From assembly GCA_963662155.1 (NCBI GenBank), contig OY759263.1, positions 36,289,573-36,353,572 on the forward strand: a stretch of DNA of 64,000 nt, given 5' to 3'. Source of the stretch: Lamellibrachia columna. Taxonomy: Eukaryota; Annelida; Polychaeta; Sabellida; Siboglinidae. Below are positions 32,596 to 63,844 of the stretch, in pieces; position 1 is the first letter of the stretch, and the number at the start of each line of letters is the position of its first letter. Below the pieces are notes generated by a model. The model saw only the letters and a list, made by a program, of their open reading frames with translations. It was not told where the DNA came from and searched no databases. Position numbers and translations under genes: made by a program.

Positions 32596-57170
<24,575 letters not shown>

Positions 57171-59116: not shown

Positions 59117-59506
59117 CTATATGACTGGTTCAAGAGGGACTACAGCAACTCCCACCCCCCCTTCGTGGGCACACATTGGCCGAGCCAATGTCCATGTCAG
59201 TGTCTCAGGGTCAAACATCTCAACTGAACTGAGATTTGTTGAGCCATCGTAACCTCCAATGGCATACAGTTTTCCACAATTTGCCACCAGTGCAACACGA
59301 CTCCGTTTCATGTTCATGTCTGCGACTTTGCTCCATTTGTTTGTGACTGGATCGAAGCAGTCAACGGTCTTGAGAAAGACATTGCCATCATAACCACCAG
59401 CGATGTAGATCTTGCCATTGAGTGCAGCCGCTCCAAGACGACATCGTTTTGTCAACATCGGGGTTGTTTCAGACCATGTCGCAGTAATGTTGTTGTAGCA
59501 CTCCAC
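59117..59506 (-). CDS. KLHL18: KLHL18 last exon
   Basis: Acceptor ctctccag| and 129 codons to TAG. Contains the last two full kelch repeats and [20 protein letters not shown] at the C-terminus, which closes the propeller. Phase 0 start. Confidence 0.92.
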   Translation of the reverse strand: MECYNNITATWSETTPMLTKRCRLGAAALNGKIYIAGGYDGNVFLKTVDCFDPVTNKWSKVADMNMKRSRVALVANCGKLYAIGGYDGSTNLSSVEMFDPETLTWTLARPMCAHEGGVGVAVVPLEPVI

Positions 59507-62500
59507 CTGGAGAGACAACGTGGAATTACTTCTCATAATTCACAAGAACCAAACACTTAATTTTAACTAACTTTAACTGCAAAAGGTTAAATAATTTGTA
59601 AACAATCTGAAATAATAAATGCAAATTGAATGGCAGTTCAAAATATTTAAAATCAACATGGTCATATATTATGTTGAGAAAGCCTGACATCAGTGTGGTA
59701 GTCTCGGTGTATGGTTTAGAACACTAAATTCTGGGGTGCAAACATTCCACCAAATTATCTTAAAACTTCACGTACATTCTCTCACAAGCTTCTGTTGGAC
59801 AGATGCTTGCATATGACATAGCTATGCACACTAAAATATATTAACATTTTCTTAATTTACTACTAGAATCCATGAGGTGTCTTGTGTTTTGTGGTGAGTC
59901 TGACTTTTGTTTATACCTGCGTATACCTAAGCACAGATAACAGATATAAATGTACAAAGAATATAATTTCTTACAAATTGGGTTCAATTCTGCAGATAAG
60001 AAGTGGAACAGCAGGTGTGGTCATACAAACATCCTTCCAGGTGTGGTCATACAAACATCCTTCCAGGTGTGGTCATACAAACATCCTTCCAGGTGTGGTC
60101 ATACAAACATCCTTCCAGGTGTGGTCATACAAACATCCTTCCAGGTGTGGTCATACAAACATCCTTCCAGGTGTGGTCATACAAACATCCTTCCAGGTGT
60201 GGTCATACAAACATCCTTCCAGGTGTGGTCATGCAAACATCCTTCCATGTGCCTATATTCTCACGTTTAATAGTTATTTGTACGGCAGTAGACAAATAGC
60301 CTACATGTGTTTGTCACACAAAGCTTCATACAATAAATACATGGATGAATTTCAACACAGAAGTTGCTGTCGAAACATTCAAAAGTTGGACCAGCTGGTG
60401 TGGGTATATCACTTTTGTTGACACTAGACACTATTTACTAATACACAATGCTAATATTAACTACTAACTCTATTTGGCCGGGTTCAGAAGGAGCAATACC
60501 ATAACATTTTACACTTCGTGGTTGCAACAAAGTCTGTTGAATACTGCCAGAATGAATCTTACCGAGTCAAAGATCGATAAACCATCATGGCCACCGAGCA
60601 CATAGATCTGTCCGTCCAGGATGGTGACTGCAGCCGCGCTGCGATGGCGGAGCATGTGTGATGCCATGGTCCACTGGTTCTTGATGGGATCGTAGCACTC
60701 GACTGAGCTTAGAGACGAGTTGCCGTCATACCCACCACAAACATACAGCTTGTTCTCCAACACTGCCACTCCGAGAGCACTGAAAACATACAGCTTTTTG
60801 TCCAACACTGTCACTCCGAGAGCACTGAAAACATACAGCTTGTTCTCCAACACTGCCACTCCGAGAGCACTGAAAACATACAGCTTGTTGTCCAACACTG
60901 TCACTCCGAGAGCACTGAAAACATACAGCTTTTTGTCCAACACTGTCACTCCGAGAGCACTGAAAACATACAGCTTGTTCTCCAACACTGCCACTCCGAG
61001 AGCACTGAAAACATACAGCTTGTTGTCCAACACTGTCACTCCGAGAGCACTGAAAACATACAGCTTGTTCTCCAACACTGCCACTACGAGAGCACTGAAA
61101 ACATACAGCTTGTTGTCCAACACTGTCACTCCGAGAGCACTGAAAACATACAGCTTGTTCTCCAACACTGTCACTCCGAGAGCACTGAAAACATACAGCT
61201 TGTTGTCCAACACTGTCACTCCGAGAGCACTGAAAACATACAGCTTGTTCTCCAACATTGTCACTCCGAGAGCACTGAAAACATACAGCTTGTTCTCCAA
61301 CACTGTCACTCCTAGAGCACTGAAAACATACAGCTTGTTGTCCAACACTGCCACTCAGAGAGCATTGAAAACACAGCTTTTTGTCCAACACTGTCACTCA
61401 GAAAGCATTGAAAACACAGCTTTTTGTCGAACACTGTCACTCCTAGAATAATGAAAACATACAGCTTGTTGTCCAACACTGCCGTTTAGAGAGCACTAAA
61501 AACATACAGCTTGTTGTCCAACACTGCCGTTTAGAGAGCACTAAAAACATACAGCTTTTTGTCCAACACTGCCGTTTAGAGAGCACTAAAAACATACAGC
61601 TTTTTGTCCAACACTGCCATTCAGAGAGCACTGAAAACATACAGCTTTTTGTCCAACACTGTCACTCCTAGAATAATGAAAACATACAGCTTTTTGTCCA
61701 ACACATCCATTCAGAGAGCACTGAAAACATATAGGTTTTTGTCCAACACATCCATTCAGAGAGCACTGAAAACATACAGCTTTCTGCCCAACACATCCAT
61801 TCAGAGAGCACAGAAAACATACAGCTTTTTGTCCAACACATCTATTCAGAGAGCACTAAAAACATACAACTTTTTGTCCAACACATCCATTCAGAGAGCA
61901 CTGAAAACATACAACTTTTTGTCCAACACATCCATTCAGAGAGCACTGAAAACATACAACTTTTTGTCCAACACATCCATTCAGAGAGCACTGAAAACAT
62001 ACAGCTTTTTGTCCACCACATCCATTCAGAGAGCACTGAAAACATACAGCTTTTTGTCCAACACATCCATTCAGAGAGCACAGAAAACATACAGCTTTTT
62101 TTCCAACAAATCCATTCAGAGAGCACTGAAAACATACAGACATTTGTCCAACACATCCATTCAGAGAGCACTGAAAACATACAACTTTTTGTCCAACACA
62201 TCCATTCAGAGAGCACTGAAAACATACAGCTTTTTGTCCACCACATCCATTCAGAGAGCACTGAAAACATACAGACATTTGTCCAACACATCCATTCAGA
62301 GAGAACAGAAAACATACAGCTTTTTGTCCAACACTGCCATTCATACAGCACTGAAAACATACAGCTTTTTGTCCAACACTGCCATTCAGAGAGCACTGAA
62401 AACATACAGGGTGTTGTATAACACTGCCACTCCGAGAGCACTGAAAACACAGCTTTTTGTCCAACAATGCCATTCAGAGAGCACTGAAAACATACAGGGT

Positions 62501-63844
62501 GTTGCACAACACTGCCACTCCGAGAGCACTGGAAACATACAGCTTTTTGTCCAACACTGCCACTCCTAGAGTAATGAAAACACACAGCTTGTTGTCCAAC
62601 ATTGCCACTCCGAGACCACTGAAAACATGCAGCTTTTTGTCCAACACTGCCATTCAGAGAGCACTGAAAACATACAACTTTTTGTCCAACACTGCCATTC
62701 AGAGAGCACTGAAAACATACAGCTTGTTTTCCAACACTGCCACTTCGAGAGCACTGAAAACATACAGCTTTTTGTCCAACACTGCCACTCCTGGAGTAAT
62801 GAAAACATACAACTTGTTGTCCAACACTTCCACTCCGAGAGCACTGAAAACATATATCTCTTTGTCCAACACTGCCACTCTGAGAGCACTGAAAACATAC
62901 AGCTTTTTGTCCAACACTGTCACTTTTAGAGCACTGAAAACATACAGCTTGTTGTCCAACACTGCCACTCTAAGAGGATTGAAAACATACAGCTTGTTGT
63001 CCAACACTGCCACTCCGAGAACACTGAAAACATATATCTCTTTGTCCAACACTGCCACTCCGAGAACACTGAAAACATACAGCTTGTTGTCCAACACTGC
63101 CACTCCTAGAGCACTGAAAACACATATCTCTTTGCGCAACACTGCCACTCTAAGAGCACTGACAACATACAGCTTGTTGTCCAACACTGCCACTCCTAGA
63201 GCACTGAAAACATATATCTCTTTGCCCAACACTGCCACTCTAAGAGCATTGACAACATACAGCTTGTTGTCCAACACTGCCACTCCTAGAGCACTGAAAA
63301 CATATATCTCTTTGCCCAACACTGCCACTCTAAGAGCATTGACAACATACAGCTTGTTGTCCAACACTGCCACTCCTAGAGCACTGAAAACATATATCTC
63401 TTTGCCCAACACTGCCACTCTAAGAGCATTGACAACATACAGCTTGTTGTCCAACACTGTCATTCCATGAGCACTGAAAACAGATCTTTTGAAACAACTA
63501 AGTGGTATAAAAAATAAAAATGCTTTATCATGACTTTTAAAGTTTTTCACTACTGTAAAAAGACTATGAACATTTTTATATGAAAAATTACTTTAAATAA
63601 AAAAATATTCATTCCTGATAACACAGTGACATCACACATTTTGTAGATGGAATAGTGCAACAAACAGTTCATTAGAATATAAATAAAACACTGGCATAAT
63701 TTACAACAATCACACTCATGTTCACATACCTTCTTTTGCATATCATACATGCCACTGTTTTCCAACGACGACTTTCGGCATCAAACAGTTCAGCTGTATT
63801 GAGTCTGCATTGCCCGTCATAACCACCAATAGCATACAGCTGGC
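59117..63844 (-). CDS. KLHL18: KLHL18-type kelch protein, last three coding exons
   Basis: Minus-strand exons 63730-63844, 60563-60779 and 59117-59506 (stop TAG) encode the C-terminal part of a kelch beta-propeller. Blades show the GG-Y-DG and W signatures: [96 protein letters not shown]. The end CAHEGGVGV is the hallmark of KLHL18. KLHL18 is a CUL3 E3-ligase adaptor (reported Aurora-A substrate); BTB and BACK domains would lie beyond the right edge. Phases 1, 2 and 0 agree. The intron between the first two exons contains a huge 45-bp array reaching into the exon. Convergent with the lifeguard gene. Confidence 0.9.
59537..60015. other. KLHL18 intron
   Basis: AT-rich, nothing recognised before the 26-bp array at 60,018. 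Confidence 0.5.
60018..60245. repeat. 26-bp minisatellite in KLHL18 intron
   Basis: Nine copies of caggtgtggtcatacaaaca plus tccttc, almost identical. On the plus strand each has caggtgtg, but the gene is on the minus strand. Confidence 0.95.
60563..60779 (-). CDS. KLHL18: KLHL18 penultimate exon (innermost acceptor)
   Basis: With the acceptor nearest the body of the exon (atgttttcag|tgctc, 60,780) the product reads [20 protein letters not shown], exactly the spacing seen in KLHL18. Donor actcg|gtaaga, phase 0. Upstream copies of the same acceptor every 45 bp would prepend [19 protein letters not shown] 15-mers. Two kelch repeats are encoded. Confidence 0.88.
60735..63485 (-). repeat. 45-bp array of 3' splice sites + exon start (~60 copies)
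   Basis: Unit on the minus strand: tgtatgttttcag (3' splice site) followed by tgctctcggagtggcagtg and about 13 more bases, i.e. the first 36 nt of the KLHL18 exon plus its acceptor. Blocks: 60,780-61,350, open in the kelch frame (13 in-frame acceptors); 61,355-61,440, two 43-bp units that shift frame; 61,440-62,700, a subfamily reading ctctGAatgg, which gives a TGA in the kelch frame in most copies; 62,700-63,480, mostly open again, with a 90-bp two-unit higher-order repeat (63,120-63,450) in which every second copy has lost the AG. The outermost copy (gatctgttttcag|tgctcat at 63,48x) borders unique intron. Confidence 0.95.
63730..63844 (-). CDS. KLHL18: KLHL18 kelch exon before the array
   Basis: Acceptor ccattgcag| and donor aagaag|gtatgtg; 115 nt, phase 1 in and phase 2 out. 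Encodes [38 protein letters not shown]. The split Ser codon (AG|T) is completed by the first base after any array acceptor. Confidence 0.9.

Follow-up and report, generated by a model that had tools for sequence, protein, structure and literature searches.

Repeats across splice junctions and the KLHL18 array

The closest described systems to the element reported here, a 45-bp tandem array over an intron-exon junction of a KLHL18 gene, are the "mirage" minisatellites of amphioxus. The array lies in a stretch of 64,000 nucleotides (C3:36289573-36353572), the whole of which is called the window below. In the accessible parts of the amphioxus report, mirages of Adh3 and of the globin genes BflGb6 and BflGb9 are tandem duplications across the 5' or 3' exon-intron boundary, their units carry cryptic AG/GT signals, and they show concerted evolution within the cluster (PMC3087553). 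The same parts report no disturbance of regular splicing, describe mirage-like arrays as possibly general in cephalochordates, and place the homogenisation of BflGb6 inside the cluster with the edges excluded (PMC3087553). Mirages also vary in length from haplotype to haplotype and are somatically unstable. There are also human cases. For CBS 844ins68, the available part of the source states that splicing strongly prefers the more distal of two copied junction sites, which removes the extra segment; another CBS variant, the 31-bp variable number tandem repeat c.1444_1467+7(16_21), lies by its name over an exon-intron boundary (PMC2630376). Boundary minisatellites in human segmental duplications are described, in the part of the report at hand, as altering splicing and as able to create new introns (PMC2812944).

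How does the KLHL18 array compare with them? Like the mirages as described in those parts, its unit spans an exon-intron boundary (TCAG plus 41 exon nucleotides, with TGTTT at the edges), and many but not all of its units carry splice signals. It is much larger: 61 copies stand against 6 and 3 units in the BflGb6 haplotypes, the Adh3 units given in the same source being 10-72 bp, and 61 copies of 45 bp stand against an average of four 30-bp units in the human boundary repeats (PMC2812944). Unlike the amphioxus mirages described there, it has 13 consecutive in-frame acceptors, and the mitochondrial gene order of its genome looks like that of an annelid, not of a cephalochordate. By the same partial account CBS 844ins68 is a single extra copy, in human, whose splicing has been studied experimentally, while the 31-bp CBS repeat is on the donor side with 16-21 copies. 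Judged by its structure, the KLHL18 array is of the mirage kind; its size, its run of 13 in-frame sites and its taxon were not met with in the open-licence literature searched. An earlier reading of the window from sequence only (the sequence-only reading) knew of no array this large. On size this is fair, and no junction array of this size was found in the open-licence literature, most subscription papers being outside the scope of that search; but the kind is known, both from the Adh3 and globin mirages and from the junction copies of human CBS. NAGNAG and other short tandem acceptors are likewise competing neighbours, few in number and a few bases apart. The KLHL18 array resembles them in having adjacent acceptors that could compete, and differs in the spacing and number of sites. 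Introns are reportedly derived from tandem arrays, a proposal said to be that of Zhuo in 2007.

The host was considered from the mitochondrial contig (C30, 16,783 bp). Its initial 3,000 bases read, on one strand, tRNA-tRNA-nad4L-nad4-tRNA-tRNA-rrnS-like (tRNA, transfer RNA), which we take to be the annelid gene order. Under code 5 no stop interrupts nad4L or nad4, and the leading two tRNA-like anticodons are by eye Pro and Thr; a tRNA search of this contig by ARAGORN with the bacterial code found none. Among solved structures, nad4 best matches 8b9z and 8esw, both presumably from Drosophila. The host genome is probably that of an annelid rather than a cephalochordate.

Array anatomy, gene context and reading frames

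The array noted by the sequence-only reading is confirmed. Tandem Repeats Finder (TRF) gives a period of 45, 61.1 copies and 88% matches, and wrap-around alignment resolves 60 full units, to which the exon adds its own 41-nt copy. With 61 copies, a chance match is ruled out. The units, numbered here from the outer end towards the exon, are 45 bp long in 57 cases and 43 bp in three (units 23, 46 and 47). Along the gene the unit is TGCTCTCGGAGTGGCAGTGTTGGA...CTGTATGTTTTCAG, that is, the initial 41 exon nucleotides and then TCAG, and it straddles the junction, from the 3' end of the intron into the KLHL18 exon that follows. Each edge of the array has a TGTTT, one at 63478-63482 where the intron ends and one at 60739-60743 within the exon; in a single-copy state the two would be 45 bp apart. 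The sequence-only reading had counted tgttttcag into the unit; the acceptor is indeed repeated, but the five bases TGTTT belong to both the intron end and the exon, at the array edges. It was right about the gene, the minus strand, the repeated acceptor and the site between the residues RS and LYVCGG.

Joining the three window exons (Table 1) yields five kelch stretches (Kelch_1, E 6e-81). BTB and BACK exons were found in order, gene-upstream beyond the window (locus L010), by tblastn with five relatives, several of which carry the source name KLHL18, so that all three domains of KLHL18 (BTB, BACK and kelch) are present. The 217-nt exon has one DNA match in the whole genome (879.7 Mb, 30 contigs), and the residues flanking the array junction are adjacent in 5/5 of the KLHL18 relatives used as queries, in query coordinates. 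From the single exon match and the ordered BTB, BACK and kelch exons, KLHL18 most likely functions here as a single-copy gene.

The AG is kept at 48 of the 61 copied junction positions (44 CAG, 4 TAG) and lost at the other 13 (units 1, 3, 5, 11, 15, 20, 26, 31, 37, 40, 45, 46 and 47). The count of about 60 tandem 3' splice sites made earlier is thereby corrected to 48 AG-bearing sites among 61 positions. The 13 acceptors nearest the exon, with their last intron base at 61320, 61275 and so on down to 60780, are all CAG and all open into the exon; frame reading of each copy confirms exactly the 13 in-frame sites and the 15 residues per step proposed before, with additions of 0, 15 and so on up to 180 residues. 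The frame at the join is AAA AGA AG from the donor side and T GCT from the acceptor side. Reading from any other acceptor meets a stop. Among the 30 units 18-47, 24 have their stop at one and the same codon, as does unit 48. In the coding frame the outer 17 units have no stop of their own (open reading frame 62699-63592), but reading on hits the TGA of unit 18, and from the outermost acceptor the stop comes after 258 codons. The earlier view of the copies further out as non-productive needs correction for the outer 17, which fail only through the TGA of unit 18.

Does the open inner block indicate function? It is open in two of the three sense frames and in two antisense frames, so in-frame openness is not special to the coding frame. 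Open reading frames were rejected as a sign of function, given these several frames and variants that are mostly replacements. Distinct variants across the 13 inner units comprise 5 replacements, 1 stop and 1 silent change, where all possible single changes would divide 97:5:33; replacement to silent variants are 18:4 in the outer block and 27:5 in the middle block. Constraint on the alternative coding segments was thus not seen, the few inner variants giving little power, and the sequences give no sign of selection for the added residues, replacements not being depleted in the inner block. A structure prediction for the 253-residue inner reading frame was uninformative (mean predicted local distance difference test score, pLDDT, 48.8).

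Mean within-block identity is 95.8% for units 48-60, 86.7% for the middle block and 86.2% for the outer block, which has a two-unit (90-bp) higher-order pattern. The 41-nt start of the exon is identical to units 56 and 59, and this points to a recent spread at the exon end: the inner part would have spread recently from, or together with, the exon copy. The intact inner frames may follow from the youth of the inner part alone. A relative, P0180 (a predicted protein on a 2,616-base Joint Genome Institute contig), is 90% identical across the 73-residue exon and reads VKSTCFS directly ahead of the exon residues. Because P0180 has no repeat unit next to the exon, the array is probably derived in the lineage of the window, although an array may lie further upstream in that relative.

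Table 1. Features of the KLHL18 array, of the GRINA array in the same window and of junction arrays in sampled kelch genes
Feature	Position	Strand	Basis
45-bp minisatellite over KLHL18 intron-exon junction, 60 full units + exon copy	60739..63482	-	TRF, unit alignment
Inner units 49-60 with 13 AG-bearing acceptors, all into open frame, +0 to +180 residues	60780..61321	-	frame reading
Middle block, units 18-47: same-codon stop in 24/30, AG lost in 8/30; premature stop if used	61365..62708	-	unit alignment, frame reading
Outer block, units 1-17: no in-frame stop of its own, runs into unit 18 TGA; AG lost in 5/17	62709..63473	-	open reading frames, unit alignment, frame reading
Outermost array acceptor (ctgttttcag), presumably ancestral	63474..63490	-	sequence, motif scan
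Upstream KLHL18 exon, ending AAAAGAAG at donor	63731..63844	-	frame reading, splice scoring, tblastn
KLHL18 kelch exon fed by the array, 217 nt; initial 41 nt = innermost repeat copy	60563..60779	-	Pfam Kelch_1, reading frame, single DNA match in genome
Downstream KLHL18 kelch exon (bounds = reach of protein similarity)	59132..59506	-	Pfam, splice scoring, tblastn
GRINA/lifeguard-like gene, array of 39 bp x 3.1, acceptors tttgtttgcag/TGAACC x3	34917..35036	+	tandem-repeat search, frame reading
GRINA exon fed by the 39-bp array	35016..35070	+	frame, donor GTGAGT
Arrays crossing putative acceptors in kelch genes: L013 34 bp x 16; L022 49 bp x 22			by eye
Arrays crossing putative donors in kelch genes: L015 19 bp x 14; L021 39 bp x 11; L022 39 bp x 7; L023 61 bp x 4			by eye

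Choice of acceptor and rival explanations

Which acceptor would the spliceosome choose? We consider it likely that the element is a very large mirage-type minisatellite, mostly intronic and spliced mainly at exon-proximal acceptors. In this scenario a short tandem duplication over the 3' end of the intron and 41 exon nt first occurred, probably between TGTTT copies 45 bp apart; the edges are observed, and the duplication between them would be the mechanism. Blockwise repeat turnover would then have raised the array to about 61 copies, most of which would act as intron. The spliceosome would most likely pick the exon-nearest acceptor or one of the innermost few, giving a normal protein, while the next 12 acceptors, if used, would add residues in steps of 15, and outer acceptors would lead to a premature stop. 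Exon-proximal acceptors would probably win, given that the gene is otherwise present and given the precedents from known systems. Exon length would be 217 nt from the innermost acceptor, 757 nt from the 13th and 2,911 nt from the outermost, and the intron ending at the outermost would be 257 nt. Exon size thus favours inner sites, and intron size favours the outermost.

Acceptors were scored with a rough weight matrix of our own, which ranks sites and is uncalibrated, and the branch-point figures are motif counts only. Eight other acceptors in the window score 1.85 to 6.16, while the array AG sites score -2.3 to 2.8 and 44 of the 48 fall under 1.85, below all eight. The top-scoring copies (units 22, 24, 27 and 30) are inside the stop-bearing block, and the outermost acceptor, with -1.3, is at the 76th percentile of 2,742 minus-strand AGs outside arrays. 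Several observations weigh against preferred splicing next to the exon. The innermost acceptor scores -0.5, only the 81st percentile of the same 2,742 AGs. The motif yTNAy within the preceding 40 bases is found, among AG-bearing array sites, only at the outermost, at -35, and under intron definition its 257-nt intron could favour this acceptor. TNAY at -32 is present in 9 of the 13 inner sites; among the remaining 35 AG sites 2 have it there, and two more have it elsewhere than -32. The units are not independent, but the motif might favour several of the productive sites. Finally, the array is most uniform towards the exon, unlike the amphioxus globin BflGb6.

Could the inner acceptors be a regulated device? 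The sequence-only reading saw in the array a gradation of productive and non-productive sites with the potential to tune isoforms. As a splicing rheostat, regulated use of the 13 in-frame acceptors would give isoforms with 0-12 extra 15-residue segments, and the outer acceptors would feed nonsense-mediated decay and set the messenger RNA (mRNA) level. Besides the TNAY distribution, this is favoured by the AG and frame kept at 13/13 inner sites against 13 AG losses in the other 48 (hypergeometric 0.03, with unit kinship ignored), and by a unit length that is a multiple of three, likewise in the array of a GRINA/lifeguard-like gene in the window. However, inner-block replacement variants are not depleted and other frames are open, the acceptors are weak by our own matrix with the strongest copies in the stop-bearing block, and P0180 has no unit beside the exon. 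What is more, among six other junction arrays in the genome the unit is not a multiple of three in four (19, 34, 49 and 61 bp) and is 39 bp in two. With no constraint seen on the variants, open alternative frames and 44 of 48 copies scoring low, the proposed tuning gained no support. A regulated isoform series is possible, yet improbable in our estimate, and the earlier interpretation is partly supported.

Costly splicing was also weighed: much KLHL18 pre-mRNA would be joined to the acceptor at 63474 or to others of the outer acceptors and then degraded, and the array would be a mildly harmful allele. The outermost site speaks for it, as the sole AG-bearing one with yTNAy, with its 257-nt intron and its stop after 258 codons, but at such a distance from the 217-nt exon's donor an acceptor would need a 2.9-kb exon, and the exon has its single match in the genome with the remainder of the gene present. 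We regard this as unlikely. It is very improbable that the copy number or the entire array was made by the assembler. Tandem arrays are often mis-sized, and the accessible part of the amphioxus report has one mirage misassembled in a draft genome (PMC3087553); distinct blocks, the 90-bp higher-order pattern and three 43-bp units are nevertheless unlike simple read stacking, and similar arrays occur at other genes. Exon-proximal splicing of a mostly intronic mirage-type array is thus the explanation we prefer.

Junction arrays elsewhere in the window and in the genome

The second junction array of the window is that of the GRINA gene. Its 39-bp unit, CATTGTAATGTTTGTTTGCAG before and TGAACCAACAAGAAAATA after the junction, is repeated without mismatch; all three acceptors are in frame (+0, +13 and +26 residues), and among the three sense frames only the coding frame is open. 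The last GRINA exon was identified by its Bax1-I domain, and the others via tblastn and by eye; one exon that should lie between 35,480 and 39,355 could not be located. Other repeats are seen along the same gene. A 30-bp array at 39707-41218 (+) is split by an unrelated insert at about 40380-41049, whose open frame we take, by eye, to resemble a retrotransposon; the resumed array stops 10 bases short of the GRINA exon acceptor at 41229. As an old exon-spanning array it was rejected: the exon side has no similarity (P 0.85), and that of the last 20 intron bases is weak (P 0.04). A 38-bp array at 56755-56930 (+) starts in the last GRINA codons and copies the coding end into the 3' region, and an 18-bp coding repeat at 33839-33917 (+) in the N-terminal exon gives a Gly-Pro-Tyr-rich run.

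Is the array at KLHL18 an isolated case? Tandem repeats with units of at least 14 bp cover about 23% of the window (14,749 bases in 26 loci, merged by hand with the (AC)n run excluded). The genome was further sampled at 23 loci at kelch genes and around the window, a non-random set of 217,573 non-redundant bases, of which 119 array loci make up 23%. Junctions in the kelch genes were inferred from protein similarity and splice motifs. Ten distinct arrays were flagged near exon cores, and eight were viewed (L020 and L025 not among them): six cross a putative junction by eye (Table 1), the array of L019 merely abuts one and that of L017 is ambiguous. Junction arrays are not rare in the sampled sequence. 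An exact pattern scan of viral contigs gave no match.

Of the 10 acceptors in the window 2 lie within arrays, and of the 9 donors, whose positions are approximate, none does. If only one-unit seeds fell at random, 0.11 acceptors would be expected there (P for at least two, 0.005), while random placement of whole arrays expects 2.06 (P 0.6). Among the 65 junctions scored in the kelch sample, 6 are inside arrays (L020 being doubtful, and the by-eye L022 acceptor not counted), where the seed model predicts 1.2 and the whole-array model 14.9. Enrichment of arrays at junctions is not claimed, as the two null models bracket the data. A broader scenario is that minisatellites are seeded preferentially at junctions and that array length is a heritable, fast-mutating splicing dial in many genes, with KLHL18, its 13 productive acceptors and some 30 mostly stop-bearing copies, as the extreme case; we hold it to be distinctly improbable. 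The KLHL18 array is one of several in a minisatellite-rich genome and is probably no dedicated device.

Mirage-type arrays, described in cephalochordates, are now placed in an apparent annelid, and they recur in its genome, with two in the window and six in kelch genes. KLHL18 is apparently still working despite about 60 junction copies ahead of one exon. The locus is thus a natural experiment on how the spliceosome chooses among many near-identical sites, and on how introns grow and shift through repeat turnover.

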